From contig JACDNX010000003.1 in assembly GCA_017656385.1 (NCBI GenBank), positions 62,001 through 126,000 on the forward strand: a DNA stretch of 64,000 nucleotides. Reading direction: 5' to 3'. Below are positions 1-59,923 of this stretch, piece after piece (position 1 is the first letter of the stretch; every line of letters begins with the position of its first letter). The translations under genes were made by a program, and so were the position numbers. Below the pieces are notes generated by a model that made no database searches, was not told where the DNA came from, and was given only the letters and a program-made list of their open reading frames with translations. The DNA comes from Thermodesulfobacterium sp. GTDB lineage: Bacteria > Desulfobacterota > Thermodesulfobacteria > Thermodesulfobacteriales > Thermodesulfobacteriaceae.

Positions 1-3000
1 GGATTTACAGGTGGATTTACAGGGGTATTTTATCAGCAATTTGCCATTACCATAGCTTTTTCTATGATCCTTTCAGGGATTGTTGCTCTGACTTTAACTC
101 CTGCTCTCTGTGCAATATTCTTAGAAGAAAAAGAAAAGAAAATTATTTTACCTGTAAAAGTATTTCAAAGGTTTATTTTAAAAACAAGGGAAGGCTTTGT
201 AAAAATTGCAGAGTTAGTTATTAAGGGATTTCCTTTAGGAATTTTGATTTTTTTACTGATTATATTTTTTAGTATAATTTTAATTAAAAGACTTCCGACC
301 TCCCTTGTTCCTATGGAAGATCAAGGCATTTTTATTCTTTTTTCCAATCTTCCTCCTGGTGCATCCCTTAAAAGAACTACTGAATATGTAAATAATAAAA
401 TAGAAGAGAGGCTCTTTAAAATACCAGAAGTAAGAGATTGGGTTGCTATTGCAGGACTTGATTTGCAGAGTTTTGGATATAAAACTGATTCAGCAACAGC
501 TTTTGTTATGCTCAAAGACTGGAAAGAAAGAAAAGGGAAAGAGGATTCAGTTTTTAATCTGGTTCAAAGACTCAATCAAGAATTTTTTAAAGACAGAGAA
601 GCTCTTACCTTTGTGGTTAATCCTCCTCCCATAAGAGGAATGAGTATTACAGGAGGGTTTGAACTTTATGTCCAAGATAGGACAGGAGGCACGGTTTATA
701 GTCTTTACAGATATGTTCAGGAATTGATAAACGAAGCCAATCAAAGGCCAGAACTTACAGCAGTAAGAACCACCTTTATTCCCAATGTTCCCACTTACAA
801 AATTGTTGTGGATAGAGAAAAAGCCAAAGCTTACAATGTAGAGATAGATGATATTTATAAAACCTTGGCTATGGTGTTTGGAAAGTATTATGTAAACGAT
901 TTTAATCTTTATGGACGCGTTTTTCACGTAAACATAGAGGCTGAGGGAGAATTCAGAGACGAGCTGAGTGACTATAGATTTGTTTATGTGCGTTCAAAAA
1001 CAGGAGCCCTTATACCTGTTAGCAGTCTTATTAAGGTGGAAAGGGTTTCTGATGCTTCAATTCTTGAAAAGTTTAATATGTTTCCTGCAGCAAAAGTTCT
1101 TGGACAACCCCAACCAGGATATTCTTCTGGTGAAGCTATAAAAGCAATTTCTGAGGTAGCTAAAAAGGTTTTACCCTCTGGTTACACTATTGCCTGGTCT
1201 GGGACTTCTTATCAGGAAATAAAAGTAAAAGGTAAGACAGGTAAGGTTCTATTTTATGCTATTATTTTTGTTTATCTTATTTTGGTTGCTCTTTATGAGA
1301 GCTGGAGTGCCCCATTTGCCATTATGCTCTCAGTTCCTTTTGCTATATTTGGAGCAAGCTTAGGAATGCATTTATTTGGTTTAGAAAATGATATTTATTT
1401 TCAGGCAGGTCTTTTAGTTCTTATTGGACTTTCTGCAAAGAATGCCATATTAATTGTGGAGTTTGCAGAAGAAGGATTGAAAAAGGGAAAGGGAGTTCTT
1501 GAAGCAACTCTTGAAGCAGCAAGACTTAGATATAGACCTATTATAATGACTTCCTTTGCATTTATTGTAGGTGCTCTACCATTGATGTTTGCTAATGGAG
1601 CAGGAGCAAGTAGCAGAGAAGTAATAGGAACAACAGTTGTTACTGGGATGCTTTTTGCTACATTATTTGGAATATTTTTTATACCTCTTTTTTATTATTT
1701 AATTGCTATCTTAAGAGAAAAAATAAAACCTTCTAAAACTTCCAAACTTTTAACCATTGTGTTAGCCTTATTGTTTTTACATGGTTGCAGTTTAGCTCCT
1801 GAGTATAAAAAACCGGAGATACCCCTTCCTGAAAATTTCAAAATTGAAGAAAAATTTTTAAATAATTCCACTAAAGTAAACTCTATACATGCGGAATGGT
1901 GGAAGGGATTTGGAGATCCTTTTTTGAATAAGTTGATTGATGAAGCTCTCAGAAATAACGATGATCTCAAAATATATACTTCAAGGGTAGAACAGGCTTT
2001 GTCTAACCTTAAATTTAGCAGAGCAGAACTTTATCCTAAATTTACCTATTCAGCCTCTGCTGAAAGAAGTAGATTCTCTGAAGAAATGTATGAATTTATG
2101 GCTGGAATAGAAAATGTTTTTAATCTTTCTGCATCAGTGTCTTATGAGCTTGATTTATGGAGTAGACTGAGAAATGAAGAAAAAGCTTCTTTTTCTCGTT
2201 TTTTGGCAACTAAAGCTGAAAGAGATGCTTTTCAAATAAGTCTTATCTCTAATGTTGTTACACTTTATTTTAATCTTATTGCAGTTGAGAAACAAGTAAG
2301 GATTGCTGAAGATTTTCTTAAAGTCCAGCAGAAAATTTATGAATTTAGAAAAAAGCAATTTTCAAATGGACTGGTTGATGAACTTGTAGTTGAACAAGCT
2401 AAAGCTGAATACGAAGCAGCTAAGTTGAGAGTGGAAGAATTAAAAAATCAAAGAAAACACCTGAAAACAGCTCTTGCTATACTTGTTGGAAGAAGCCCTA
2501 AGGAACTTTTTGAAAAAGAAATTACTATAGGAAAGGATTTACCTAAACCATTACCTATTCCTGAAGCTTTGCCATCATCTCTTTTGCAAAAAAGACCTGA
2601 TATTGTAGCTGCTGAGGAGAGACTTAAGGCTTTAAATTTTGAAATTGGTGTTGCAAGATCGGCTTATTTTCCTTTAATTAGCTTAACAGGAGCCTATGGA
2701 TTTGAAAGTATGGAACTTTCAAATCTTATGAAACATTCAGCCTCTGTTTGGAATCTGGGTGCACTTATTACAGGAACTATTTTTGATTTTGGAAGAACTA
2801 AAAGTATGGTAGAGCTTAAAGAAGCTGAAAAAAAAGAAGCGCTTTATAATTATGTTAAAACTGTTAAGAATGCATTTAAAGAGGTTTATGATGCACTGGT
2901 TAATATTTCATCAACTTATAAAAAACTTTCTTATCAGCAAGACCAGCTTGAGACACTGAAAAGGTTGATTTATCTTTCAGAAAAAAAATTTGAAAAAGGT

Positions 3001-3141
3001 TTGGTTGATTACTTAACGGTGCTTGATGCACAGAGAACCTATCTTAATTCCCAGCTAAATTTTATTTCACTAAAAGCAAAGCTTCTTAATAATTATGTTT
3101 ATCTTTACAAAGCACTTGGTGGAGGTTGGGAGGGATACTAA
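1..3141 (+). CDS. RND efflux permease (3' part) fused in frame to NodT-type outer-membrane factor lipoprotein
   Basis: The frame is open from base 1, so the gene is truncated by the window edge. Bases 1-1740 encode the C-terminal half of an HAE1/AcrB-type proton-driven efflux pump: the segment ending in LTLTPALCA, a periplasmic porter domain and the last membrane helices. No stop follows. The frame continues into KLLTIVLALLFLHGC (Cys codon 1786-1788), a lipoprotein signal peptide, and then about 450 residues of a NodT/OprM-like outer-membrane factor with the usual two-fold helical repeat. These are normally separate genes of one operon. GTG at 1759 is the only canonical internal start near the junction and has no clear SD; AAGAGA before ATA at 1723 might allow non-canonical initiation. 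The domain assignments are secure. Whether one polypeptide, a processed polypeptide or two proteins are made is open. Confidence 0.85.
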   Translation, partial: GFTGGFTGVFYQQFAITIAFSMILSGIVALTLTPALCAIFLEEKEKKIILPVKVFQRFILKTREGFVKIAELVIKGFPLGILIFLLIIFFSIILIKRLPTSLVPMEDQGIFILFSNLPPGASLKRTTEYVNNKIEERLFKIPEVRDWVAIAGLDLQSFGYKTDSATAFVMLKDWKERKGKEDSVFNLVQRLNQEFFKDREALTFVVNPPPIRGMSITGGFELYVQDRTGGTVYSLYRYVQELINEANQRPELTAVRTTFIPNVPTYKIVVDREKAKAYNVEIDDIYKTLAMVFGKYYVNDFNLYGRVFHVNIEAEGEFRDELSDYRFVYVRSKTGALIPVSSLIKVERVSDASILEKFNMFPAAKVLGQPQPGYSSGEAIKAISEVAKKVLPSGYTIAWSGTSYQEIKVKGKTGKVLFYAIIFVYLILVALYESWSAPFAIMLSVPFAIFGASLGMHLFGLENDIYFQAGLLVLIGLSAKNAILIVEFAEEGLKKGKGVLEATLEAARLRYRPIIMTSFAFIVGALPLMFANGAGASSREVIGTTVVTGMLFATLFGIFFIPLFYYLIAILREKIKPSKTSKLLTIVLALLFLHGCSLAPEYKKPEIPLPENFKIEEKFLNNSTKVNSIHAEWWKGFGDPFLNKLIDEALRNNDDLKIYTSRVEQALSNLKFSRAELYPKFTYSASAERSRFSEEMYEFMAGIENVFNLSASVSYELDLWSRLRNEEKASFSRFLATKAERDAFQISLISNVVTLYFNLIAVEKQVRIAEDFLKVQQKIYEFRKKQFSNGLVDELVVEQAKAEYEAAKLRVEELKNQRKHLKTALAILVGRSPKELFEKEITIGKDLPKPLPIPEALPSSLLQKRPDIVAAEERLKALNFEIGVARSAYFPLISLTGAYGFESMELSNLMKHSASVWNLGALITGTIFDFGRTKSMVELKEAEKKEALYNYVKTVKNAFKEVYDALVNISSTYKKLSYQQDQLETLKRLIYLSEKKFEKGLVDYLTVLDAQRTYLNSQLNFISLKAKLLNNYVYLYKALGGGWEGY

Positions 3142-3922: not shown

Positions 3923-3970
3923 TGTCCTTTTCAGCACAGAAAAATTCTTTAAATTGTTCTGTAAAGGACA
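3923..3970 (+). other. Multi-tier inverted repeat downstream of tRNA-Leu
   Basis: TGTCCTTT (3923-3930) pairs with AAAGGACA (3963-3970), and ACAGAA (3936-3941) pairs with TTCTGT (3957-3962). A 5-base bulge interrupts the left arm, and a short AATT/AATT pairing lies in the loop. An A/T-rich stretch follows. It may terminate the tRNA transcript. Its right arm also resembles the enhancer-like motif between the divergent promoters near 12.8 kb. Confidence 0.5.
3954..3970 (+). promoter_or_regulatory. Candidate upstream activator site for the linked NtrC-type regulator
   Basis: TTGTTC-N6-GGACA matches exactly the same pattern at 12798-12814, where it lies between two candidate sigma-54 promoters. 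Here it lies about 85-100 bases upstream of the candidate -24/-12 element of the porin, a usual distance for an NtrC-family enhancer. It overlaps the right arm of the hairpin, so either role could explain it. Confidence 0.35.
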
Positions 3971-4054: not shown

Positions 4055-4070
4055 GGGCATGTTTTTTGTG
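4055..4070 (+). promoter_or_regulatory. Candidate sigma-54 (-24/-12) promoter of the porin gene
   Basis: GGGCATG-TTTT-TTGTG compared with consensus TGGCACG-N4-TTGCW. GG is at 4056-4057 and the -12 element has GT in place of GC at 4068-4069, with the required 10-base separation. Predicted transcription start is near 4081, 28 bases before the ATG. The linked NtrC-type activator gives the call context. Confidence 0.45.
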
Positions 4071-4108: not shown

Positions 4109-5419
4109 ATGAATTTAAAAAAGTGGGGAATTTTAGGCTTGGCAGGAGCTTTAGTACTAAGTTCTGCAGTTTCTGCAAAGGCTTTTCAGGTTAAAGTTGA
4201 TGAAGATACCTTTGCTGATATAGGTTTTCAAGTAAGAGTTAACTATTTAAACCAACCCGAAGATAAAGATCATGATTACAGATGGAATAGATTTCAGGTA
4301 ACTAAATATAGAATATTTTCTATTGGTCAGATTAATAAACTTGTTCAGTATTATGCAATGGTTGATGCAAATTATAATTCACAAACATATCAAAATGAAG
4401 CTAAATTATGGGAAGGAGGGGTACAATTAACCTTTGCTCCTGAATTTATTTTGAAGATGGGCAAACTTAGAGTTCCTTTTAGCAGAAACAACTTGAGAGC
4501 TCGTTTTGTAAGTCCTGTTATGTCAAGTAGTGGAAATTTTTTTATTCCTAATCAATTTAAAGAAGCACTAAAAGCTGTAAATCCCTATCCAGGAGGTTAT
4601 AAGGACTCTGATCCTTTTAAAAGAACTGATTTTGGAGTGGTTTTAGCTGGTTACATTAAAAATGGCCTCTTTAAATATTATGTTAGTCTTTTTAATGAAG
4701 ACAGGTCAAATGCAACCAAGGTCTGGAAGCTTTCTAAGGGATGGGTTGATGCAAATACTATCAAAACTTCAGAAGATAAGAAAAGTTTTGAGTATGATAT
4801 AAGGATAGAATTTACTCCTACCTTCTGGGGTTTTAATTCTGAAAAAACTGTTTTTAAACCTCATCAAAGAGAAGCTGAGACTTATCTTGGAAAATTGGAT
4901 TTTATGACCATTGGACTGGGATATCATCATGAAAAACACTTAGATGGTCTTGACAAAGCAACTTATGGAACTTCGGATCTTGAAAGAGATGCTTGGGCTG
5001 CTGATATTGCCTTTGAAAAGACTTTTAGCAAAAAATATATTATAGGTGGAGAAACAGGTTATATGTACTTTGATGATACTCATTTATATGAAACCTCTAA
5101 TGGTCAATATAAAAAAGGTGATGTCTGGACTTGGTATATAAGTGGTCATTTCACTTACGGAGAAAAGATAGGAATGGGTTACCCCGGAATTGGTTTTAGA
5201 TATGAATATATTAACATAGATGGAAAATATAATAACGAAGATGATCTTGTTTATGATCGTTATGGATTGTGCTTTAATTACTGGTTTACAAGAAGCACAA
5301 GAATTGCAGTAGGGGTTGATTTTATGAAGGCAAAAGATGCCTTAGAGAAATATTTTGAAGATAATAATTGGGACGATTCCACTACAAACTGGTATGTAGG
5401 TGTTTATGCACAGTTTTAA
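4109..5419 (+). CDS. Outer-membrane porin, OprO/OprP-like (phosphate-selective porin superfamily)
   Basis: A 436-residue beta-barrel protein with a clear Sec signal peptide (MNLKKWGILGLAGALVLSS, cleavage after the SAKA region). Alternating amphipathic strands run throughout, and the chain ends in an aromatic residue (VGVYAQF), typical of BamA-assembled porins. The stretch FAPEFILKMGKLRVPFSR is typical of OprO/OprP-type porins. A strong SD (GGGAGGTG) precedes the ATG. The gene is monocistronic, with a hairpin terminator behind it and a candidate sigma-54 promoter in front. Next to a binding-protein/two-component system, it is a likely route for an anionic substrate across the outer membrane; the substrate itself is not evident. 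Confidence 0.75.
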   Translation: MNLKKWGILGLAGALVLSSAVSAKAFQVKVDEDTFADIGFQVRVNYLNQPEDKDHDYRWNRFQVTKYRIFSIGQINKLVQYYAMVDANYNSQTYQNEAKLWEGGVQLTFAPEFILKMGKLRVPFSRNNLRARFVSPVMSSSGNFFIPNQFKEALKAVNPYPGGYKDSDPFKRTDFGVVLAGYIKNGLFKYYVSLFNEDRSNATKVWKLSKGWVDANTIKTSEDKKSFEYDIRIEFTPTFWGFNSEKTVFKPHQREAETYLGKLDFMTIGLGYHHEKHLDGLDKATYGTSDLERDAWAADIAFEKTFSKKYIIGGETGYMYFDDTHLYETSNGQYKKGDVWTWYISGHFTYGEKIGMGYPGIGFRYEYINIDGKYNNEDDLVYDRYGLCFNYWFTRSTRIAVGVDFMKAKDALEKYFEDNNWDDSTTNWYVGVYAQF

Positions 5420-5427
5420 TAAATCTT

Positions 5428-5450
5428 AAAAGGGGGGATACCCCCCTTTT
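5428..5450 (+). terminator. Rho-independent terminator after the porin gene
   Basis: AAAAGGGGGG (5428-5437), loop ATA, CCCCCCTTTT (5441-5450): a perfect 10-bp stem ending in a T run, 9 bases after the porin stop. Confidence 0.9.
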
Positions 5451-5517: not shown

Positions 5518-7170
5518 ATGCACAATTTTTTTAAGAAAAATTTTTGGATTTTACTTTTTCTTAGTTTATTCTTAATCAGCTGTAAAAACAGTTCAAAAAA
5601 TTTTAAAGAAGTCCAGTTTAAAGATTTAAAAGGTCCTCCTCTTGTTATAGGAATCCTATCTCAAGATTCTCCCAAGAATGTCTTAGATACTTTTTATCCT
5701 CTTAAAGCTTTTTTAGAAAACAAATTACAAAAACCTATAAGGATTTATATATTTAAAAATTTTGACAAATATTATCAGAAAATCCAAGGAAAAGAAATAG
5801 ATATTTTAATTTTAGATCCAGCTTCTTACTGTGAAATAAGATGGAAAACACAAAAGTATATTATTCCTTTAGTTAAACCAGAGGGAGGAGAAGGAGAAAT
5901 AAGAAGTGTTTTTGTAGCTAAGGAAGGTGGATCCATAGAAAAAATTTTTGATGCTATAAATAAAAGACTTGCGCTTGGAGATGAAAGATCATCTTTTAGT
6001 TATTTAATCCCTGTTTCTATGTTAAAAGATGTGGGACTATCTTTAAAAGATTTTAAAAGAGTTGATAGGATAGAAAATGAACATAATATTGCTCTTTTTG
6101 TGCTTATAGGAGAGTATGAAGTAGGGGCTTTAAGCGAATCTGTAGCTAACAAATATTTGAAAGATGGTCTAAAGATTATAAAAAGATCAGAAATTACTCC
6201 GAAGTTTATTGTTGCCACAAGAGTAGATTTTCAGGAAAAAGATAAAATAAAAAAACTTTTATTGAATCAAGTTGATAAAAAAATTTTGCAAATTCTTAAT
6301 ATAAAAAGTTTTGCGCCTGCCGAAGATAGGGATTTTGATTATATAAGAGTTTTAATCCGCAATTTTAAAGGAAAAGATTATATAGAATACTCAAAAGATA
6401 CTATAAAAGTTGCTATTCTTCCTCTTTACAGTCCCTTAACTATTTATAAGAAATTTGATCCTCTTATGAGGTATCTTTCAAAAAAGACTGGTTATGAGTT
6501 TAAACTGGTAATCCCTAAGGACTTTGAGGAATTTATTAAAATTGTTAGTGAAGGAAAGGTGCATTTTTCTTACCAAAATCCTTATGTATATGCTCTTATT
6601 GCTAAAAAATATCCCTTGAAAGTTTTAGTTATAACTGTGGGAGAGGAATGTGAGGTTAATAATGTAAAAAAAGTTTGTGGTGGAAAAGCTTTTAGAGGGG
6701 TTATTATTGTAAGAAAAGATAGTAGTATAGGTTCTGTAAAGGATTTAAGAGGAAAAAAGATTTTTATTGTTTCTCCATATTCTGCAGGAGGATTTTTATC
6801 TCAAAGGTTGTTCTTAGAAAAGAAAGGTTTCAATGTATATAAAGATTTTAGGCTTGTTGATGCTAAAAGACAGGAAAAAGTGATAATAGGAGTATACAGA
6901 AAAGAAGCGGATGCTGGGTTTGTAAGAGAAGCGGCTCTTTCAGTCTTTTCTCAGGAAGTTGATATGACAAAAATAAAAGTCCTTGCCTTTACAGAGTATC
7001 TTCCCAATTGGCCTTTTTGTGCAGTAAATGTAGATCCTGCACTGGCTAATAAGGTGAAAGATCTGTTAATTCAAATAAAAAACAAAGAAATTTTAAAAAA
7101 TCTTTATATTAAAGGTTTCAGTCCGGTATCAGATGAAGATTATAGAATTCTTAAAAAATTGGCAGAATAA
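5518..7170 (+). CDS. Lipoprotein with two tandem PhnD-type periplasmic binding domains (sensor component)
   Basis: A 550-residue lipoprotein: hydrophobic signal then LISC, Cys22 being the lipidation site. Residues 41-265 and 296-550 each form a PhnD/AioX-like substrate-binding domain. Domain 2 is the more typical, with VRKDSSIGSVKDLRGK and SPYSAGG. Domain 2 also has two cysteines (C378, C387) before the DLRGK segment. No ABC permease or ATPase gene is nearby. Instead the kinase gene overlaps by 38 bases, so the protein probably presents ligand to that kinase, as AioX does with AioS. The family is known to bind phosphonate, phosphite, arsenite, thiosulfate and tetrathionate, so the ligand is open. 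Two binding domains in one chain is unusual for such sensors. The ATG lacks a strong SD. Confidence 0.82.
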   Translation: MHNFFKKNFWILLFLSLFLISCKNSSKNFKEVQFKDLKGPPLVIGILSQDSPKNVLDTFYPLKAFLENKLQKPIRIYIFKNFDKYYQKIQGKEIDILILDPASYCEIRWKTQKYIIPLVKPEGGEGEIRSVFVAKEGGSIEKIFDAINKRLALGDERSSFSYLIPVSMLKDVGLSLKDFKRVDRIENEHNIALFVLIGEYEVGALSESVANKYLKDGLKIIKRSEITPKFIVATRVDFQEKDKIKKLLLNQVDKKILQILNIKSFAPAEDRDFDYIRVLIRNFKGKDYIEYSKDTIKVAILPLYSPLTIYKKFDPLMRYLSKKTGYEFKLVIPKDFEEFIKIVSEGKVHFSYQNPYVYALIAKKYPLKVLVITVGEECEVNNVKKVCGGKAFRGVIIVRKDSSIGSVKDLRGKKIFIVSPYSAGGFLSQRLFLEKKGFNVYKDFRLVDAKRQEKVIIGVYRKEADAGFVREAALSVFSQEVDMTKIKVLAFTEYLPNWPFCAVNVDPALANKVKDLLIQIKNKEILKNLYIKGFSPVSDEDYRILKKLAE

Positions 7171-8755
7171 GATTTTTAATTTTCGAAAAAAAGTTTTATT
7201 TGTTTGGAACCGTTTCAGTATAAGAAAAAAAATTTTTGTTTCTTTCTTGGTTATTGTGTTTATTATAACTTTTTTAACTGATTTTCTTATCCTGGATTAT
7301 CAGAAAAGATCTTTCAAAACTGAGATTCATAAAAAATTAAAGTCAGATTTGGATGCCTTAAATTATGAAATTATAGACTATGTTATATTTTTGAATCCCT
7401 TAAAACTGGATAAAAAGGTGTCTTTGTTGATGCAAAATCCTGGCATTAAATATGTAATGATTGTGGATCAGAATGGTAGAATTATTGCTCACAGTAATCG
7501 TAAAAAACTGGGAACTTACATTAAAATTTTACCTGATAGTTTTACTTATTGGGAGAAAGAGGATTCTGGAATAAAAATTATTAATATTCCTATTTTTAAA
7601 ACTTCTTACCCTCTGGGGATTATAAGAGTAGGTATTTCAGAGGAAGAAGTAAATAACTACATAGAAATGTCTTCTCAAAATCTTAGAAATTATGTTTTCG
7701 TAATCTCTGTGTTTATAATACTTTTAACTCTACTGATTTCTTATTTTCTTGCTAATACTTTAACTAACCCCCTTTCCAGACTTAAAGAGAAGATGGCTAA
7801 TTTAAGAACTGATAGGCTTGAGTTGTGTGAAAACGAAAATTTAATAAGGTGTAAAGATTTTTATAGATGTAATCAAATTGATTGTCCAGCCTATGGAAAA
7901 ACAAGATGCTGGTTAATTTATGAAGCCTCTGAAATATGTAAAAAAATACATAATATAGAGTGTCATGAATGTTTTGTTTATAAAATCTCTTGTGGAGATG
8001 AAATAGGATATCTTATTGAAACATTTAACGAAATGATTATAAAATTAAAAAAGTCATTAGAAGAACTTGAAAGAACCAATTTAGAAAGGATTAAGTTAGA
8101 AAAAACTTCAGCAGTAGCCGAAATGTCAATGATAGTAGCTCATGAAATAAAAAATCCTTTGAATGCAATAAAGGCTGCTTCAAACTATTTGAAAAACAAT
8201 TTTAAGGGTAAAATTCTTAATGAGTTTTTGTGTATAATTGATAAAGAGGTAAACAGGTTAAATGAGCTTATAAACAGTTTTCTTTCTTATGCTAGACCTT
8301 TATCTTTGAGACTCGAAAAGAATAATATTAATGAAGTTTTGAAAGAGGTGATAAAATTAGTTAGACCAGAAATTGAAGAAGAAGGCAAAGTTTTAAAAAC
8401 TAAATTTGATTGGGAAATTCCTGATTTTTATTTTGATGCTCCACAAATAAAGCAGGCTATATTAAATTTATTGATCAATGCTCAAGAAGCTACAAAAGAA
8501 GGTGATATTATTTTGATTTTAACTGAGAAAAAAGATAATTTTGTTAAAATAGTGGTTAAAGATACAGGAGTTGGAATTTCAGAAGATAAACTTGATAAAA
8601 TTTTTGAGCCGTTTTATACTACTAAAACTACTGGATCAGGCCTTGGGCTTGCTTGTGTAGAAAGAATTGTTAAAGAACATGAGGGAAAGATTGAAGTAAA
8701 AAGTATAGTAGGTAAAGGTACCGAATTTATAATTAAATTGCCTTTAAAGGTATGA
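7133..8755 (+). CDS. Membrane histidine kinase with Cys-rich HAMP-distal insert
   Basis: A 540-residue kinase. TM1 (about 33-54) and TM2 (about 187-208) flank a small periplasmic sensor domain. A HAMP-like region follows, then a Cys-rich segment (residues 232-287; C232, 240, 246, 251, 259, 269, 277, 280, 287, including CPAYG and RCW). The HisKA domain has the phospho-acceptor His337 in AHEIKNPLNAIKAASNYL. The HATPase_c domain has the N box (NLLINAQEAT), DTGVGIS and GSGLGLA. The gene overlaps the binding-lipoprotein gene by 38 bases and the regulator gene by 4 (ATGA), so the three are translationally coupled. The cysteines could hold an iron-sulfur cluster or metal and add a cytoplasmic redox input; that is inference. 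Confidence 0.92.
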   Translation: MKIIEFLKNWQNKIFNFRKKVLFVWNRFSIRKKIFVSFLVIVFIITFLTDFLILDYQKRSFKTEIHKKLKSDLDALNYEIIDYVIFLNPLKLDKKVSLLMQNPGIKYVMIVDQNGRIIAHSNRKKLGTYIKILPDSFTYWEKEDSGIKIINIPIFKTSYPLGIIRVGISEEEVNNYIEMSSQNLRNYVFVISVFIILLTLLISYFLANTLTNPLSRLKEKMANLRTDRLELCENENLIRCKDFYRCNQIDCPAYGKTRCWLIYEASEICKKIHNIECHECFVYKISCGDEIGYLIETFNEMIIKLKKSLEELERTNLERIKLEKTSAVAEMSMIVAHEIKNPLNAIKAASNYLKNNFKGKILNEFLCIIDKEVNRLNELINSFLSYARPLSLRLEKNNINEVLKEVIKLVRPEIEEEGKVLKTKFDWEIPDFYFDAPQIKQAILNLLINAQEATKEGDIILILTEKKDNFVKIVVKDTGVGISEDKLDKIFEPFYTTKTTGSGLGLACVERIVKEHEGKIEVKSIVGKGTEFIIKLPLKV

Positions 8756-10089
8756 AACCCAAAATACTCTTTGTTGATGATGAAACAAGCAGTTTAAGAA
8801 CCATTTCTGCAGTTTTGGAGAAGTCCGGTTTTAAAGTTATTACTGCAAAAACTGCAGAAGAGGGAATTGCTAAGCTTCAAAATTTGACTCCAGATTGTAT
8901 TCTTCTTGATTATCTTCTTCCTAATATGAGTGGAATTGAGATGTTAAAATACTTAAAGAAAGAAAATTATCATATTCCTGTAATTATTCTTACGGCTTTT
9001 GGTACAATTGAAAAAGCAGTTGAAGCTATAAAATTAGGAGCTTTTCATTATCTGGTTAAACCTGTTGATCCAGAACTTTTAGTAAATGTTTTAAAAGAAG
9101 CGGTAACTAAATATGCTGTTTCTGCAGATGAGGATTATTATGTAAAAAAGTTTCCAGAGATAATTGGTAAAAGTGAAGCCATTAAAGAGATTTTTCATAT
9201 TATTGAGATGGTAGCAGAAAGTAATGCTAATGTACTTATTACAGGAGAGTCTGGCACAGGTAAAGAGTTGATAGCAAAAGCCATCCATAAAAATTCTCTC
9301 CGCAGAGCCAATCCATTTTTAGTAGTTGATTGTACAACTATTCCTGAGAACCTTTTAGAGAGTGAGCTTTTTGGATATGAAAAAGGAGCTTTTACAGGTG
9401 CAACAGAAGCCAAAAAAGGACTTATTGAGTTAGCAAACAGAGGAACTTTATTTCTGGATGAGATAGGAGATTTACCTTTATCTTTACAAGGAAAGCTTTT
9501 AAGATTTTTGCAAGAAAAAGAGATCAGAAGACTTGGAAATACAAATAGAATTAAAGTAGATGTAAGGATTATAGCCTCTACCAATAGAGATCTTGAAAAA
9601 GCGGTTAAAGAAGGTTCTTTCAGAGAGGACTTATACTGGAGACTTAATGTAGTTAGAATTCATCTGCCACCTTTAAGAGAAAGAAAAGAAGATATTCCAC
9701 TTTTAGTTAATTATTTTTTAAATAAATATGCTAAGGAAAATAATAAACCTGTTCCTTATTTAGAACCAGAGGTGATGGATGCATTAATAAGTTATGAATG
9801 GCCTGGGAATATAAGAGAACTGGCACATGTAATTGAGAGAGCAGTTGTGCTTTCTCCTGCTGGAAGAATTTCTCTTAAACACTTACCTAAAAGAATTATA
9901 GAGAAACCAGATAAAGAGGAAAAGATAGAAGGAGAAACTTTAAATTTAGTGGAAATGGAAAAGAAATTGATAATTAAAGCCTTGAATGAAACAGGATGGA
10001 ATCAAACCAAAGCTGCTAAGATTCTTGGTATTTCCCGTAAACAACTAAGAACTAAAATGAAAAATTATGGATTATTGCCTTCTAAATAG
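8752..10089 (+). CDS. NtrC-type sigma-54-dependent response regulator
   Basis: A 445-residue regulator with three domains. The receiver (1-120) has phospho-acceptor Asp53 in LLDYLLPNMSG and Lys103 in LVKPVDP. The AAA+ domain has Walker A GESGTGKE (165-172), the sigma-54 contact loop GAFTGA (212-217) and LFLDEIGDLPL. A C-terminal Fis-type HTH ends with AAKILGISRKQLRTKMKNYGL. The intact GAFTGA loop means it should activate sigma-54 promoters. Candidate -24/-12 elements precede the porin, the molybdoenzyme and the TSUP gene around it. Its stop lies 3 bases from the stop of the convergent iron-sulfur gene. Confidence 0.95.
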   Translation: MKPKILFVDDETSSLRTISAVLEKSGFKVITAKTAEEGIAKLQNLTPDCILLDYLLPNMSGIEMLKYLKKENYHIPVIILTAFGTIEKAVEAIKLGAFHYLVKPVDPELLVNVLKEAVTKYAVSADEDYYVKKFPEIIGKSEAIKEIFHIIEMVAESNANVLITGESGTGKELIAKAIHKNSLRRANPFLVVDCTTIPENLLESELFGYEKGAFTGATEAKKGLIELANRGTLFLDEIGDLPLSLQGKLLRFLQEKEIRRLGNTNRIKVDVRIIASTNRDLEKAVKEGSFREDLYWRLNVVRIHLPPLRERKEDIPLLVNYFLNKYAKENNKPVPYLEPEVMDALISYEWPGNIRELAHVIERAVVLSPAGRISLKHLPKRIIEKPDKEEKIEGETLNLVEMEKKLIIKALNETGWNQTKAAKILGISRKQLRTKMKNYGLLPSK

Positions 10090-10092
10090 CTT

Positions 10093-10578
10093 TTATTTCA
10101 AAAGTTCTTTCTTTTTAAGTCTTGACAACTCATTTACTGATAATAATTTTAGAGCATGGGTAGTACATTTGGTGACACAGGCTGGCATAAGCCCTTGGTC
10201 AAGTCTATCCATACAAAGGTCACATTTTATAACGGTTCCATCTTCTGGATTATATTGAGGTATGCCCCAAGGACAGGCTTCAATACAGTTTTTACATCCT
10301 ATACATAAAGATTTATCAACAAAAACTATTCCGTCTTTTTTTCTTTTTTGCATAGCTCCGGTGGGACAAGCTTCTACACAGAGCGGACGACCGCAATGAA
10401 AACAGGGAACAAATACAAATTTTTGAAAAACTTTATTCTCAGAGAGCTTTATATCAGAAGGAAGTATTTCACAGATTTTAATCCCTGAGCTCAAGTTTTT
10501 ATTAATTATACAATGCACTTCACAGGCACGACAACCTATGCATTTATCAAAATCCTGAACAATACGATATGCACTCAA
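10093..10578 (-). CDS. Four-cluster [4Fe-4S] electron-transfer subunit of the molybdoenzyme
   Basis: A 161-residue protein of the DmsB/PhsB/NrfC type. Sixteen cysteines form four cluster sites: C13/16/19/23, C59/62/67/71, C92/95/98/102 and C119/122/134/138, with the usual CxxCxxCxxxC and CxxC-x11-CxxxC spacings. There is no signal peptide or membrane helix. It is the second gene after the catalytic subunit, 14 bases downstream, and must pass electrons between that enzyme and a soluble carrier or an anchor encoded elsewhere, since no NrfD/PsrC-type membrane subunit is present here. Confidence 0.93.
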   Translation of the reverse strand: MSAYRIVQDFDKCIGCRACEVHCIINKNLSSGIKICEILPSDIKLSENKVFQKFVFVPCFHCGRPLCVEACPTGAMQKRKKDGIVFVDKSLCIGCKNCIEACPWGIPQYNPEDGTVIKCDLCMDRLDQGLMPACVTKCTTHALKLLSVNELSRLKKKELLK

Positions 10579-10592
10579 CTTTTCCCTCCTTT

Positions 10593-12680
10593 CTAAATTT
10601 TTCTTATTTTTACAAAGTTTTCAAATAAAACTCCTGTGTGAGTTCCTTTTCCAAATTTATCAAAAGCTCCTCTTAACAAACGACCTTCGTTAAGTCCCTT
10701 ACCATAGCTTCTACTAAGCCAGGGAACATCATTTTGAAATCCTCTATACATAAAAACACATTCTGGATGTATAAAAGGGGTAACCTTAGTCTTTATTTTC
10801 CCTGAATAGTCTTCAGAAGAAACTTCTACATAATCTCCATCCTTTATTCCAAGTTTTTTTGCCACTTCTTCGTTAATCCATAATTCGTTTTCAGAAAGTA
10901 TTTTATTTAATACTGGATTATTTTGCGTTCTTACATGTGTATGAACAGCACATCTCCCAAATATGAGCCTGAATTCACCTTTTTCAGTGCTTGGTTTAGG
11001 TTTTTCTTCATAGTCAATAAAATAGGGGACTTCTCTTTCATCCATTTTTTGAGAGGTAATTTCAATTTTCCCAGAAGGAGTTTTAAATTTCAACTCTTCT
11101 CTGCTGTAGATAAGAGGTTCTTTACATAAAGGCACAAATCCCTTTTTGTCAAAATCTTCTATTTTTATTCCTGTACCTTGAAGCTGATAATTCCAAATCT
11201 CTTTTATACTTTCGTAGGGAACATACTGAGCTAATCCCATTTTTTTACAAAGTTTTGTAAAAATCCACCATCTTGGTTTGGTATCATAAATAGGTTCCAC
11301 AGCCTTTTTCCTTACAATGAAAGCAGGTTTAGCTCCTCTCTGAAGTCCTATTATGTCATCTCTTTCTAAGTAAGTAGATTCAGGTAAAATAACATCTGCA
11401 AACCAGCTGGTAGTTCCATAATCCACAGGGATGTGAACCAGAAGCTCAAGTCCTTTTAAAATTTCCTTAATATCTGACAAAGGCATTCCTGCAAAAGGAT
11501 CGTATCTGTAAATGATAATGGCTTTTACAGGATAGGGATCTCCTGTTTTGATGGCTTTAAAAAGGTGCAAAATATGTCCGGCTCCATCATATAGAAATCC
11601 TTTGCCCAATTCAGCTTCTATACGTTTTTCCTTAGGTTGAGGAATTGGTTCGAGAAGGCTTTTTAATGGTTTTGCTCCCACTTCCTTGGGAGATTTAGCT
11701 AAAATCAGTCCACCTTTCTGTTCTATATTTCCAAGAAGTGCATTTAAAATGTATACCGCTCTTGCGTAATAAAAAGAATCTACATATCTTGCACCAAACC
11801 AGTAAGGATAAATTATGACTTGGGGTTTAGCTTCACTTAATTCTCTTGCTAATTTAATAATTTCTTCTTCTGGAACTTCAGAAACACTTTCTGCCCATTT
11901 AGGAGAATATGGTTTAACAAAATTTTCAAGTTCTTCCATCCCAAGGAAAAACTTATCTACAAAGTCTTTATCATAAAGATTTTCCTTAATAATTTGGTGA
12001 ATTAGGGCAAGAACTATGGCGTAGTCTGAACCAGGACGAATTCTGAAATATTTGGTAGCTTTAGTAGCAGTTATATTAACTATGGGGTCAAAATAGGTGA
12101 GTTTTGCTCCTCTTTCTAAGGCTTTAAGGACATTGTTAGCTTCTTTTACTGCTACAGCGTCAAAAAAGGCTCTACCAAAGGAAACTATATGTCTGGCATT
12201 GCTGAAGTCATAACTTATCTGATTTCTCGGTATTCCAAAAAGGGTTTGTGCTGCCAGGTCTACATTTTTTCTGCAAAGATCGTCATGATTGAAATAGTTA
12301 GGAGAACCTATGGCACGGATAAAAACTCTTTGCATTTCTCCAAATAGACCGCCTCCCCTGTCAAGAAGAGCTATAGCCTTTGCTCCGTATTTATCTTTTA
12401 TTGCAGTTAATTTTTCTGCTATATAATTTAAAGCTTCATCCCAAGTAACTCTTTTCCATCCTCCAGATCCCCTTTCACCTTTTCTTATCATTGGATATTG
12501 TGGTCTTTCTTTGTCATAAAGGTGAACCATTCCTGCAGATCCTCTGGCACAAAGAGCTCTTTCTATACCAGCCATATAGGGATTACCCTCTATCCAGGTT
12601 ATCTTCCCATCGGTTACCTCAACCCTTATGGGACATCTTGCAGAACACATTCCACATACCGAAAACACTTCTTTTTTCAT
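10593..12680 (-). CDS. Molybdopterin (bis-MGD) oxidoreductase, PsrA/PhsA-like catalytic subunit, no Tat signal
   Basis: A 695-residue protein from the ATG at 12680, chosen because AGGAGG lies 9 bases upstream; an in-frame start at 12707 would sit upstream of that SD. A [4Fe-4S] motif is formed by C9, C12, C16 and C44. In GSPNYFNHDDLC, Cys136 sits where Psr/Phs/Fdh-type enzymes carry the Mo/W ligand. The C-terminal cofactor domain contains HTHVRTQNNP, typical of thiosulfate/polysulfide reductase-like members. There is no twin-arginine signal, so it should be cytoplasmic, unlike PhsA and PsrA. Substrate cannot be read from sequence. A sulfur oxyanion would fit the neighbouring TSUP exporter and PhnD-type sensor, but this is inference. 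A candidate sigma-54 promoter lies just upstream. Confidence 0.88.
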   Translation of the reverse strand: MKKEVFSVCGMCSARCPIRVEVTDGKITWIEGNPYMAGIERALCARGSAGMVHLYDKERPQYPMIRKGERGSGGWKRVTWDEALNYIAEKLTAIKDKYGAKAIALLDRGGGLFGEMQRVFIRAIGSPNYFNHDDLCRKNVDLAAQTLFGIPRNQISYDFSNARHIVSFGRAFFDAVAVKEANNVLKALERGAKLTYFDPIVNITATKATKYFRIRPGSDYAIVLALIHQIIKENLYDKDFVDKFFLGMEELENFVKPYSPKWAESVSEVPEEEIIKLARELSEAKPQVIIYPYWFGARYVDSFYYARAVYILNALLGNIEQKGGLILAKSPKEVGAKPLKSLLEPIPQPKEKRIEAELGKGFLYDGAGHILHLFKAIKTGDPYPVKAIIIYRYDPFAGMPLSDIKEILKGLELLVHIPVDYGTTSWFADVILPESTYLERDDIIGLQRGAKPAFIVRKKAVEPIYDTKPRWWIFTKLCKKMGLAQYVPYESIKEIWNYQLQGTGIKIEDFDKKGFVPLCKEPLIYSREELKFKTPSGKIEITSQKMDEREVPYFIDYEEKPKPSTEKGEFRLIFGRCAVHTHVRTQNNPVLNKILSENELWINEEVAKKLGIKDGDYVEVSSEDYSGKIKTKVTPFIHPECVFMYRGFQNDVPWLSRSYGKGLNEGRLLRGAFDKFGKGTHTGVLFENFVKIRKI

Positions 12681-12728: not shown

Positions 12729-12744
12729 TGCAAAATTGATACCT
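12729..12744 (-). promoter_or_regulatory. Candidate sigma-54 promoter of the molybdoenzyme operon
   Basis: Read on the minus strand: AGGTATC-AATT-TTGCA. GG (12743-12742) and GC (12731-12730) are separated by exactly 10 bases. The -12 half is a full match to TTGCW; the -24 half is weak apart from GG. Predicted start is near 12718, about 38 bases before the ATG. Confidence 0.4.
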
Positions 12745-12798: not shown

Positions 12799-12836
12799 TG
12801 TTCCAATTGGGACAGAATATAGTTCCAAAAGGGCAA
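12799..12836. promoter_or_regulatory. Paired dyad sites between divergent sigma-54 promoters (candidate enhancer)
   Basis: Two related dyads occur: TGTTCC-AATT-GGGACA (12799-12814) and AGTTCC-AAAA-GGGCAA (12821-12836). Their starts are 22 bases apart, two helical turns. They lie about 55-95 bases upstream of the -24 region of the molybdoenzyme promoter and about 65-100 bases upstream of that of the TSUP promoter. This is where a dimeric NtrC-type activator would bind cooperatively to serve both directions. Confidence 0.5.
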
Positions 12837-12898: not shown

Positions 12899-12914
12899 TG
12901 GTATTTTTTTTGCT
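12899..12914 (+). promoter_or_regulatory. Candidate sigma-54 promoter of the TSUP exporter gene
   Basis: TGGTATT-TTTT-TTGCT compared with TGGCACG-N4-TTGCW. GG is at 12900-12901 and GC at 12912-12913, with the required 10-base gap and a full -12 match. Predicted start is near 12925, followed by SD AGGAGGTGG and ATG at 12956. Confidence 0.5.
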
Positions 12915-12955: not shown

Positions 12956-14209
12956 ATGAATGTAGATTTAAAGTTTTTAAAAAAACTTAAAACTTTATCA
13001 ATGATATTTTTTCTTGTTTTTTCAATTTTATGGATTTATTGGTTAGGCACAGCCTCACTTTCAGCTAAAGAATCCGCTACTTTCAAACCAGCAAATGTCA
13101 CATCAATCACATCTTCTCAGGAAATAGCTGATATTGGGTTGTCTGGGAAATTAGGTGAAATTATTTCTAAAACTCCTGTATGTAGTGAAACCGTAAAAAC
13201 AGGATGTATAGATGAAAAAGCCCCTAAGGGCTATTTGGGAATTCCTGGAGCGCCTAAACCTAATTTAATTCTTGCTTTTATATGGGCTATCTGGGTAGGA
13301 TGGATATTTTCTACAGTAGGAGCTTTTGGTGGAATTATGGCTGGGGTAGGGCATATTACTATTTATGGATTAGGTAACTATGCCAGCTCATTTAAAAAGA
13401 TCAATCCAGCTTTAAATAAATTTCTCACAGATACAATTCGTGTATCAAATATGTTTTTGGTTGGATTGAGTGCTTTGATATCTTCTTTTAATTACTGGCG
13501 TATGAAAAGAATTGTTGCTCCACTTGCTATAGCAATGACTATTGGAGCTGTTGGAGGGGCAATCTTAATAGCCTATCTTACAGCTGGAAAAGTGAGTTTT
13601 AAACAGTATATAGGATATTTTGGTTTAGCTGTTTTCGTAATAGCAGGTTTTATGTGGTATGGAACCACCGAAAGAGCGAGAGCAAAGAGAAAAGCGGCAA
13701 GAGAAGCAGCTAAGAGGTTTGAAGAATCTGTGAAAAAAGGAGAAGCTGTAGAAGGAGTTAAACTCGTAAAATTTGGTTTAACTGAGTGTGTGTTTACTTT
13801 TGCAGGTGTTGAGTTTAAATTCAATCCTTTACTTGCTGTCTTTGGAGGTTTAGCTATTGCCATTATTTCAGTATTTTTGGGTATAGGAGGAGGATTTTTA
13901 TTGGTGCCCTTTATGACAGATATTGTTAAACTACCTATGTTTATCGTGGCAGGAACTTCTGCTTTCGTGGTTATGGTTCAAATGATAGTAGGGATTTTAA
14001 CCTATTTAGCAAAAGGAGTAATAGTGTGGTGGCCACTTATTGGGGTTGAACTCATAGGTATTTTTATAGGCTCTATGATAGGTCCTCGCACTCAAAAATA
14101 CATTCCTGATATATGGTTGAAGCGCTTGTTTGTTTTACTTGCTATCTATGTGGGACTGCGTTATACTACCAAGGGCTTTCTTGGGAAAAGCATAGTTCCT
14201 CCTTATTAA
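12956..14209 (+). CDS. TSUP (TauE/SafE) family anion exporter with large periplasmic loop
   Basis: A 417-residue membrane protein with about 8-9 helices. It shows the TSUP repeat twice: GWIFSTVGAFGGIMAGVGH in the first half and ISVFLGIGGGFLLVPFM in the second. A first helix (about 14-33) is followed by a roughly 70-residue hydrophilic loop with two cysteines (C76, C84), longer than in typical 250-residue members. A basic and acidic cytoplasmic segment links the halves. Family members move sulfite, sulfoacetate, thiosulfate or other organosulfur anions. Placed next to the molybdoenzyme and under a candidate sigma-54 promoter, it may export the enzyme's product or import its substrate. A hairpin terminator follows. 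Confidence 0.87.
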   Translation: MNVDLKFLKKLKTLSMIFFLVFSILWIYWLGTASLSAKESATFKPANVTSITSSQEIADIGLSGKLGEIISKTPVCSETVKTGCIDEKAPKGYLGIPGAPKPNLILAFIWAIWVGWIFSTVGAFGGIMAGVGHITIYGLGNYASSFKKINPALNKFLTDTIRVSNMFLVGLSALISSFNYWRMKRIVAPLAIAMTIGAVGGAILIAYLTAGKVSFKQYIGYFGLAVFVIAGFMWYGTTERARAKRKAAREAAKRFEESVKKGEAVEGVKLVKFGLTECVFTFAGVEFKFNPLLAVFGGLAIAIISVFLGIGGGFLLVPFMTDIVKLPMFIVAGTSAFVVMVQMIVGILTYLAKGVIVWWPLIGVELIGIFIGSMIGPRTQKYIPDIWLKRLFVLLAIYVGLRYTTKGFLGKSIVPPY

Positions 14210-14275: not shown

Positions 14276-14941
14276 ATGTCTGAAAAATTTGAGATTTACT
14301 ATTATAAGTTTCTGCTTATCATTGATAGAATATTTATTCTTCCATATAAGTTTTTCTATTTTATTTTTAAAAATCCTGTTTTCGCTTATTTTTTAGGAAC
14401 TTTTACTCTGGGCTTTTTAGCCGTATTAATAGGCAAGCTGTTCTTAGGTTCTATTTTTTACCTAAATCGCAAATATATAAAGATCTTAAACGAAGAACTT
14501 ATAAAATGGTATAATCTATCAGTTGAAGCTTTGGAAAAAGAGGATTCAGAAAAGTTCCAGCTTTTTAATAAAGAAGCCAATGAATATTTTGGAAAACTTT
14601 TCTTTTTAAATATAGCTCAATCTATAAGTTTACTTATTCCTCTACCTTTTGTGCTTGCTTGGTTGCAATTTAAATTTGGAGAAATTAAATTTTTTCTACC
14701 TTTTTCAATTCCTTTTGTAGGAAATCAGGTAAATTATATTTTTACATTTTTGGTATGTTATTTGTTAGCCTGTATGCTTTATAAAAAGATATGCAAGTTT
14801 TTACCAATTTTTAGAAAAATTGAAGAATTTATAGCAATTTGTGGAGATGTGCAAAAAGAGATAAAAAGCATGGCAGAAGTTTTAAAAAAGAAAAAAATTT
14901 TAAACTGTTGCAAGATAGAGAAACATAAGAGTATTTATTAA
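14276..14941 (+). CDS. Unknown membrane protein with central helical hairpin
   Basis: A 221-residue protein I do not recognise with confidence. Hydrophobic stretches lie at about 20-70 (two helices), 112-130 and 148-168. A charged segment (about 75-105, LNEELIKWYNLSVEALEKED) likely forms a coiled coil between helices. The C-terminus is basic and has a CC pair. A coiled-coil hairpin between membrane helices is reminiscent of Oxa1/DUF106-type proteins, but no signature residue confirms that. SD GAGAGG precedes the ATG. A terminator lies upstream, so it is probably transcribed separately from the exporter and together with the interrupted gene that follows. Confidence 0.65.
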   Translation: MSEKFEIYYYKFLLIIDRIFILPYKFFYFIFKNPVFAYFLGTFTLGFLAVLIGKLFLGSIFYLNRKYIKILNEELIKWYNLSVEALEKEDSEKFQLFNKEANEYFGKLFFLNIAQSISLLIPLPFVLAWLQFKFGEIKFFLPFSIPFVGNQVNYIFTFLVCYLLACMLYKKICKFLPIFRKIEEFIAICGDVQKEIKSMAEVLKKKKILNCCKIEKHKSIY

Positions 14942-58012: not shown

Positions 58013-58789
58013 TTAAAACAAGTTTTTAATAATATTCAAATAATATGGAAGGTTTTTCCATAAAAGTTTAATTCCTACTCCGATAAGTATGATTCCGAAC
58101 ATTTGTTTTATCCACTGAGATTTCATTTTTTCTTTCATCACTCTTGCTCCTATTTGAGAGCCTATTATCACTGCAATAGTGGTAAAAATCATCAAAGGCA
58201 CATTAAAGTGTCCTGTGGTTATATGTCCCAGAAACCCTGAAAAGGATGAAAAAATAACAATAAAACTATTTGTTGCAGCTGCTATTTTGGTCTCATAACC
58301 GATAACAATCATTAAAGGAACAAATAAAAATCCACCTCCGATACCGAGCATACCTGCTATAAGTCCTATAAAAGCCCCACCAATAATCATTAAAATCAGT
58401 TTCAATTTATAGGAATAAAATTTTTTCTGTTCCTTTGACGAAGAAAATAACATTTTTAGTCCTGCAAACCATATAGCTATTATAAAAAATAGCATTAACA
58501 ATTTTACAGGAATAAATTCTGTTAAATAAGCACCTATCGGGGCACTTAAAGAGGAAGAAATTAGGAGAGGCAAAGCTCCTTTTATATCCACCATCTTTGC
58601 TCTTAAGTAATATATAGCAGCTGAGAGAGCAGTAATCCCATTTAAAAGTAATCCTGTTGGAATAGCAACAGTTTTAAAATCATATCCCAGCCAGTAAAAT
58701 ACAGGTACATAAAGAAGTGCCCCTCCTAATCCAAGCATAGAAAATATAAAAGAGAGAACCAAAACAGAAAAAGTAGCTAGAATCAACAT
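58013..58789 (-). CDS. TSUP (TauE/SafE) family transporter
   Basis: 258 residues, about 8 helices and both family repeats: FSMLGLGGALLYVPVFYWLG and IAGMLGIGGGFLFVPLMIVIG. Standard length, unlike the 417-residue relative at 12956. Located between the ArsR-FmdE gene and a porin, all on the minus strand, so probably controlled by the ArsR-type regulator. The anion is not known. Confidence 0.9.
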   Translation of the reverse strand: MLILATFSVLVLSFIFSMLGLGGALLYVPVFYWLGYDFKTVAIPTGLLLNGITALSAAIYYLRAKMVDIKGALPLLISSSLSAPIGAYLTEFIPVKLLMLFFIIAIWFAGLKMLFSSSKEQKKFYSYKLKLILMIIGGAFIGLIAGMLGIGGGFLFVPLMIVIGYETKIAAATNSFIVIFSSFSGFLGHITTGHFNVPLMIFTTIAVIIGSQIGARVMKEKMKSQWIKQMFGIILIGVGIKLLWKNLPYYLNIIKNLF

Positions 58790-58803
58790 AAACAGTCTCT
58801 TTT

Positions 58804-59742
58804 TTACCTTTCAAATCCCTCGGTATAGCCTGCACAATCAATGCAGACTTTTTTCTCTCCAAGAATTCTTACATAAGGCATAGAAACCCATTCTCCACAA
58901 ATATCACAGACAATAGAACCGAGAATTTCTTCTGGTGGTTCAAAATTTGTATCTTTTACAGGACTTATGAAAAATATTTCATCTTCAGGTGCTTCAAGCA
59001 CTATATTGATAGCTTCCATAGCTTCTTCATCTGGAATTTCTGTAGGAGGAATCCCAGCTGCTCTCTTCTTCATAAAAGCAGTATTAGCAATTTTATCTTT
59101 TAGCTTTCCATTATAGGCTATACGAATTTCTTTCCAATTTTTAATGTCTATAAGAGTAAAAGCAAGCTTTCCTTTTAAGGTTTTTATTAGATTTCCTTTT
59201 CCTATAGAACAACCAGTTGCTACCTGAACACCATCAGCAAAACATACAGCACCATGGGCATGTCCAACTTCAATGAGACAATAAAGAGAGCGAGTTCCTG
59301 TCCTTTGTGTTTTAAGTTCTCTTAAGGCAATAAGACCTGCTCTTAATCCCAAAGCAGAGGCCCAGCACTTATGTCCGTGAAAATCAAACAACAATTTTAG
59401 AAGATCTTTTTTTATTTCCATAATGACACCTCCTTCTTTTTGATTAGAGCCAAAGGCAAAAGTTTTACCTTTTGTGTTTTCAATGACTGATAAGATTAAA
59501 AACCTTTTAAAAAGGTTAGAGTCATCAAGACTGTAAAAAATTCGAGTGCCTTCCTTTCTCATTTTAACTAATCCAGCATCTTTCAAAATATTTAGGTGAA
59601 AAGACACCTTTGGCTGGCTCATTTTTAAAATAGAAACAATTTCACAGACACAAAGTTCCCCATTTTCAAGAAGTGCTAATAATTTTAATCTTGTTTCATC
59701 AGAGAGAGCTTTAAAAATTTTCACTAAATCACTTGTATTCAT
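58804..59742 (-). CDS. ArsR-type HTH regulator fused to FmdE-type metal-binding domain
   Basis: 312 residues. Residues 1-95 are an ArsR winged helix (LSDETRLKLLALLENGELCV, MSQPKVSFHLNILKDAGLV) with a CVC pair near the second helix. Residues 108-312 are an FmdE domain (FDFHGHKCWASALGLRAG, VGHAHGAVCFADGVQVATGC, ending in a CDICGEW...CIDC zinc ribbon). FmdE is linked to Mo/W formylmethanofuran dehydrogenase operons. An SD AAGGAGGTG stands 7 bases before an internal ATG at 59421, so a free FmdE chain (about 204 residues) may be made as well as the fusion. It lies divergent from a tungsten-type enzyme gene, suggesting metal- or substrate-controlled expression; this is inference. Confidence 0.85.
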   Translation of the reverse strand: MNTSDLVKIFKALSDETRLKLLALLENGELCVCEIVSILKMSQPKVSFHLNILKDAGLVKMRKEGTRIFYSLDDSNLFKRFLILSVIENTKGKTFAFGSNQKEGGVIMEIKKDLLKLLFDFHGHKCWASALGLRAGLIALRELKTQRTGTRSLYCLIEVGHAHGAVCFADGVQVATGCSIGKGNLIKTLKGKLAFTLIDIKNWKEIRIAYNGKLKDKIANTAFMKKRAAGIPPTEIPDEEAMEAINIVLEAPEDEIFFISPVKDTNFEPPEEILGSIVCDICGEWVSMPYVRILGEKKVCIDCAGYTEGFER

Positions 59743-59754
59743 AAAAAATATAAA

Positions 59755-59776
59755 AAATTTTTGATATAATTTTGAT
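59755..59776. promoter_or_regulatory. 11-bp tandem repeat upstream of the ArsR-FmdE gene (possible operator)
   Basis: AAATTTTTGAT (59755-59765) is repeated as ATAATTTTGAT (59766-59776), two mismatches, one helical turn apart, 13 bases upstream of the regulator ATG. It includes TATAAT. It could be an autoregulatory operator, but A/T-rich chance repeats are likely here. Confidence 0.2.
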
Positions 59777-59923
59777 CTATTTTAAGATTAAATTTAAAAA
59801 AATCAAGCGAATTAATAAAAAAATTTTAATAAACTTGTTAGTTCTAATTTTAGTGGAAGAATAGCAAAATTGTGATAAAGTAATAAAAATTTAGATAAAT
59901 ACTTAGATTAAAAGGTGCGTAAA

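Follow-up and report, generated by a model that had tools for sequence, protein, structure and literature searches.

Candidate paired enhancers of a sigma-54 activator before a PhsA-like molybdoenzyme and its partner genes in Thermodesulfobacterium

Activators of the NtrC type bind as dimers to dyads upstream of their targets, oligomerise and reach the sigma-54 polymerase through a DNA loop, and sigma-54 promoters require such an activator. In the AioXSR and ArxXSR systems a PhnD-like sensor, a kinase and an AtoC-type regulator are joined to an RpoN promoter and a molybdoenzyme (PMC5908839, PMC6011840), and the footprint of AioR corresponds to GTTCGGATTTCCGAAC (PMC5335332). The ThsSR and TtrSR systems use a PhnD-like sensing domain to control the neighbouring PhsA or tetrathionate reductase operon (PMC5408782). 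In Desulfovibrio vulgaris, sigma-54 regulons mostly comprise one to four operons, with palindromic sites of 4-6 base arms and the activator gene beside its targets (PMC4641369, PMC3333781), with the largest share of promoters having their closest activator site no more than 100 bp away (PMC4641369). The locus described here resembles these regulons in all of these respects, although no motif of its sequence appears in the text, figures aside, of the two D. vulgaris papers (PMC4641369, PMC3333781), among open-access literature that leaves an earlier description possible.

The locus lies in a stretch of 64,000 nucleotides (hereafter the window, C3:62001-126000) of a Thermodesulfobacterium genome of 1.67 Mb in 44 contigs. 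The genes for a porin, a sensor, a kinase and a regulator are placed between two intergenic regions that carry candidate enhancer sites, and the second of these regions is flanked by the molybdoenzyme and Fe-S genes on one side and by the divergent TauE gene on the other (Table 1). As in AioXSR and ArxXSR, a separate PhnD-like periplasmic sensor, a kinase and an AtoC-type regulator are clustered with a molybdoenzyme, whose operon is predicted from sequence to be turned on through a palindromic site that precedes an RpoN promoter. However, the sensor here is longer, a lipoprotein in which two stretches match PhnD, and the target is PhsA-like instead of an arsenite oxidase (AioBA or ArxA). The molybdoenzyme matches thiosulfate reductase best (PhsA, 560.7 bits) and reaches only 40.8 with TIGR02693, the model of AioA-type arsenite oxidases; no twin-arginine signal was found in it. 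The PhnD-like domain and the neighbouring PhsA-like operon are shared with ThsSR and TtrSR, but there the domain is part of the kinase, whereas here the PhnD domains and the kinase are encoded by separate overlapping genes and the regulator is of the NtrC/AtoC type, expected to work with sigma-54. The sensor also gives a weak NCBIfam match to TtrS. The three domains of the regulator (PF00072, PF00158 and PF02954) all score far above cut-off, and the genome encodes one rpoN (PF04552 at G000:C4, 3.1e-61). The porin-like protein has no Pfam match of its own; an ortholog of 67% identity is found in T. hydrogeniphilum, where a site lies upstream as well.

Table 1. Sites, promoter candidates and genes of the locus, in window positions.
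Feature	Position	Strand	Basis
Second porin-side site TGTCCTTTTCAGCACA	3923..3938	.	9/10; 32 bp (three turns) upstream of 3955..3970
Porin-side enhancer site TGTTCTGTAAAGGACA	3955..3970	.	10/10
Weaker -24/-12 candidate GGGCATGTTTTTTGTG, porin	4055..4070	+	GG-N10-GT; score 8.7, shuffle p 0.012
Porin-like outer-membrane protein gene, proposed target	4109..5419	+	signal peptide, composition, context
Sensor lipoprotein (phnD2), PhnD-type (Phosphonate-bd) domains	5518..7170	+	Pfam PF12974 1.1e-92, two stretches
Membrane histidine kinase	7133..8755	+	sCache, HisKA, HATPase_c
NtrC/AtoC-type response regulator, proposed binder of the sites	8752..10089	+	receiver, sigma-54 AAA+, Fis-type HTH
4Fe-4S (DmsB/PhsB-like) subunit, proposed target	10093..10578	-	domain matches
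PhsA/PsrA-like molybdopterin oxidoreductase, proposed target	10593..12680	-	PRK15488 (PhsA) 4e-168, below curated cut-off
-24/-12 candidate AGGTATCAATTTTGCA, molybdoenzyme genes	12729..12744	-	GG-N10-GC; score 10.2, shuffle p 0.012
Primary enhancer site TGTTCCAATTGGGACA	12799..12814	.	10/10 to TGTYC-N6-GRACA
Secondary weak site AGTTCCAAAAGGGCAA	12821..12836	.	7/10; starts 22 bp past primary start
-24/-12 sigma-54-type candidate TGGTATTTTTTTTGCT, TauE gene	12899..12914	+	GG-N10-GC; score 10.4, shuffle p 0.009
TauE/SafE-type permease, proposed target	12956..14209	+	PF01925 2.9e-22

Other genes of the window were noted in passing. The membrane protein encoded at 14276-14941 (221 aa) belongs to no known family, lies beside TauE in T. 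hydrogeniphilum too (80% identity) and was not found in the other loci compared. At 58013-61885 a second TauE-family gene is accompanied by an apparent fusion of an ArsR-type regulator with another domain and by an aldehyde:ferredoxin oxidoreductase-like gene (named by eye), and similar genes lie directly upstream of the sensor gene in the genome G010 (L096:4460-9774). Positions 1-3141 belong to a single frame of 1504 aa (L002:4628-9142) that joins an RND efflux pump (AcrB family) and an outer-membrane efflux protein (OEP) in one polypeptide, an unusual inner-to-outer membrane fusion.

An earlier note on this DNA had proposed two dyads between divergent candidate sigma-54 promoters as enhancers. 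Both elements, TGTTCCAATTGGGACA and AGTTCCAAAAGGGCAA, lie where it had placed them and at the spacing it gave. In the second, two of six arm positions are complementary; it is barely a dyad and would not stand alone. The recurrence of TTGTTC-N6-GGACA at 3954-3970, about 85 bp ahead of the porin promoter candidate, was recovered as well, and so were both divergent -24/-12 candidates around the sites, each with a shuffle p of about 0.01. The "three promoter regions" of the earlier note turned out to be two intergenic regions, and the 9/10 site at 3923-3938 had escaped it.

Pattern searches with reversed-pattern controls were used for the genome-wide statistics. The exact pattern TTGTTC-N6-GGACA occurs four times in 1.67 Mb, where a dinucleotide model expects about 0.6 and the reversed pattern gives none. 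Such a search had been suggested as a check of specificity. Two copies are the intergenic ones of this locus, and the other two fall in unrelated coding sequence, one in a GGDEF-EAL-like gene (55084) and one in a paaK-like gene (C6:50364). Four copies are nonetheless not the many that were said to speak against the idea, which argues weakly in its favour. No genome-wide excess of sites with one mismatch was detected (13 matches, 34 for the reversed control); of three such sites near another activator (C2:53-57 kb), two are inside coding ORFs and they were set aside. Evidence within this single genome is thin, and the strength of the case rests on related genomes, given that the statistics are modest and one-mismatch sites are not enriched. 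Taken by itself, the window would even allow the sites to be chance palindromes without function in AT-rich intergenic DNA, since its matches with up to two mismatches equal the shuffled expectation and half of the four exact copies in the genome are coding. Against this, perfect sites recur before the same genes, with phasing and promoters, in eight Thermodesulfobacterium genomes and six of a second clade. This comparison already refutes the chance reading unless the gene correspondences are wrong, and we regard it as exceedingly improbable.

Comparison with relatives refined the motif to TGTYC-N6-GRACA. It stands before the same targets, namely the PhsA-like molybdoenzyme, the TauE permease and the porin, in eight Thermodesulfobacterium genomes (that of the window and seven others), relatives that are not statistically independent; in the other genomes of the genus the cluster was located and all strict sites were scanned for their context. 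The motif of the primary site thus recurs upstream of orthologous genes: an intergenic 10/10 site precedes the molybdoenzyme in G009, G011, G012 and G021, and a 9/10 site, accompanied by the promoter AGGCACAATTTTTGCT, does so in G015. A perfect 10/10 site precedes each of the molybdoenzyme and TauE genes in G009, G012 and G021, although the former is separated from the regulator by 14-16 kb or placed on another contig and TauE is far away. The divergent layout of G010 is that of the window, in a stronger form: two perfect sites 21 bp apart separate a leftward lipoprotein-porin-molybdoenzyme-FeS operon from a rightward TauE gene, with an excellent GG-N10-GC promoter on either side (TGGCATCAACTTTGCT and AGGCACATTCTTTGCT). 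In T. hydrogeniphilum (G013) a perfect site, TGTCCCTAAGGGAACA, lies upstream of the porin ortholog. T. geofontis (G011) has a perfect site before the molybdoenzyme and another just past what looks like the end of the tRNA-Leu gene, the spot that precedes the porin in the window. Some further intergenic strict sites were treated as chance, specifically those in short gaps beside unrelated genes (G019:C41, G011:C103) and one between the apparent two pieces of a broken gene (G013:C5). A combined tmc/hmc electron-transfer cluster on one side and nuo genes on the other enclose the genes for the molybdoenzyme and its Fe-S subunit in G021 and G015 (L161:6557-16423, L186:6520-16402), and in UBA2600, whose family makes up the second clade, the kinase-regulator pair is near tmc/hmc-like genes; no enhancer was found before the tmc/hmc genes of G015 and G021 or in the tmcD region of UBA2600.

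The UBA2600 MAG, classed in the Nitrospirota, encodes orthologs of the kinase and the regulator (71% for the latter), and its molybdoenzyme ortholog (68%) belongs to a uspA-TauE-TauE-Mo-FeS-nuo operon. The strict TTGTYC pattern had seemed to fail there, all four of its matches being coding; the true sites begin CTGTCC. They came to light in the promoter region of the TauE-Mo operon, where two 10/10 sites, TGTCCCATTTGGGACA and TGTCCCTAATGGGACA, lie 31 bp apart with TGGCAAGTCTTTTGCA downstream of them. The regulator is present in all 16 genomes of the family, and in each of the six in which the uspA-TauE-Mo operon was examined there are tandem sites 30-31 bp apart, the pairs of the five further genomes with a readable operon scoring 10+10, 10+9 or 9+8. 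The -24/-12 promoters of all six operons are near-perfect and of the TGGCA type (scores 14.0-16.5). Across about 376 kb of sequence from this family, six of seven perfect sites fall in the uspA-TauE-Mo promoter region.

When the mean score of a second site was followed around the best site of nine Thermodesulfobacterium regulatory regions, it peaked at 21-22 bp, a height that none of 2000 shuffles reached at any adjacent pair of offsets, and a second peak was seen at 32 bp (p ~0.01). The 21-22 bp phasing persists without G010 (p 0.009 at any offset) and loses its significance when both G010 and the window (G000) are removed (p 0.116 at any offset; 0.008 at a fixed offset). It is this excess that backs the secondary site at 12821-12836. 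With the pairs of the second clade, at 30-31 bp, taken into account, the spacing of these putative paired sites corresponds to two or three helical turns.

At the promoter level, candidates were scored with a sigma-54 matrix hand-set from the published consensus. The distance of AGGTATCAATTTTGCA from the molybdoenzyme start is the one seen in G009, G012, G015 and G021, and the porin promoters are weak, being GG-N10-GT in the window and having lost the GG in G013. The sites might enhance only one of the divergent genes or act as operators for repression, an unlikely alternative to which the imperfection of both divergent promoters in the window, and the fact that binding between divergent promoters can also repress, lend some weight. 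However, separate sites serve the molybdoenzyme and TauE in G009, G012 and G021, both divergent promoters around the G010 pair are excellent, and the regulator carries a full sigma-54 AAA+ domain, suited to promoters that need an activator. Autoregulation of the regulator operon was considered too and is unsupported, because no sigma-54 promoter of phnD2 itself was found and a terminator-like hairpin occupies the porin-phnD2 gap. This hairpin (5428-5450) is a perfect G6/C6 one with flanking A and T runs, terminator-like on both strands, and it suggests that the regulator operon has its own promoter.

Natural losses link the sites to the regulator. G017 keeps the molybdoenzyme (76% identity), and in its assembly, which is 93% complete so that absence calls are not absolute, there is no match for the regulator, no strict site anywhere and no good -24/-12 match before the molybdoenzyme, which is preceded instead by TTGACA...TATATA, a sigma-70-like promoter. 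The sites thus appear to vanish where the regulator gene is absent, within the limits set by genomes and MAGs that may be incomplete. G013 has broken sensor and kinase genes and a regulator without its HTH, and the -24 GG of its porin promoter has changed to GA; G011 has a fragmented regulator, and AC replaces the -12 GC of its molybdoenzyme promoter. The T. hydrogeniphilum locus (L093:10000-15700) shows the extent of the damage: stops or frameshifts interrupt the sensor and kinase, and a deletion has brought TauE directly against the truncated regulator, with loss of the regulator's HTH, the enhancer and the genes for the molybdoenzyme and the Fe-S subunit. All intact orthologs of the regulator share one recognition helix, GISRKQLRTKM, and every paralog examined has a different one. 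The protein that binds a palindrome cannot be read from the palindrome by itself, and a different factor, be it a one-component regulator or another of the roughly eight true sigma-54 activators encoded in this genome, could in principle bind the sites and control the same genes. The invariance of this helix in intact orthologs and its divergence in genus paralogs, the joint absence of regulator and sites from G017 and the pairing of the same regulator with the same motif in the second clade argue otherwise, and we judge this alternative unlikely. We are highly confident that the regulator encoded at 8752-10089 binds the enhancers and activates the flanking sigma-54 promoters.

The enhancer reading of the earlier note is in this way supported by the same motif before the same targets in relatives, by sigma-54-type promoters at most of them and by phased pairs, and it is very probably on these sites that the neighbouring sensor-regulator lands to switch the genes on. 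In the proposed mechanism, the PhnD-type periplasmic sensor lipoprotein and the membrane histidine kinase would sense an oxyanion and phosphorylate the regulator, dimers of which would bind TGTYC-N6-GRACA as an upstream activating sequence. A pair of dimers spaced by two or three turns, facing the same side of the helix, would favour assembly of the AAA+ oligomer, which would contact sigma-54 RNA polymerase at -24/-12 promoters some 40-95 bp away and drive expression of the PhsA-like molybdoenzyme with its Fe-S subunit, the TauE permease and the porin. In the window, a single enhancer between divergent promoters would serve both the molybdoenzyme and the TauE genes. That the regulator binds, that the adjacent kinase phosphorylates it and that one enhancer activates both divergent genes are steps that we infer. 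Our best guess for the signal is a sulfur oxyanion such as thiosulfate, based on the PhsA-like enzyme, on its partnership with TauE, of the sulfite exporter family, and on the PhnD-like domains of known sensors of thiosulfate and tetrathionate (PMC5408782).

By analogy, the system works like AioXSR, and its half-sites are alike in letters (GTYC-N6-GRAC here, GTTCGGATTTCCGAAC for AioR). It differs in that the half-sites are two bases closer (N6 versus N8; GTY-N8-RAC against GTTN10AAC), that the sites come in helically phased pairs and that TauE and porin genes are proposed to be co-regulated; it is not filed as AioXSR because the enzyme and the site spacing differ. An NtrC-family domain set, RpoN in the genome and a conserved dyad upstream of -24/-12 promoters (weak at the porin) make a new regulon of an ordinary kind well supported. 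More tentatively, and with somewhat less than even confidence, it could be a so far undescribed three-component sulfur-oxyanion switch of thermophiles of two phyla, in which a sensor with a double PhnD domain would act with a kinase and a sigma-54 activator to control a cytoplasmic PhsA-like molybdoenzyme and a TauE exporter (with a porin in one lineage) through paired enhancers whose spacing is three turns in one lineage and two in the other, with the phase kept.

For an uncharacterised molybdoenzyme common to Thermodesulfobacterium and a Nitrospirota-classed family, the locus provides a testable regulon with an exact candidate binding motif. It also offers a natural experiment on the geometry of sigma-54 enhancers, with phased pairs at two versus three turns, which extends to the decay of promoters upon breakage of the regulator and, in the absence of the regulator, to a promoter that looks sigma-70-like. 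The motif can also guide the search for the signal and for further targets.
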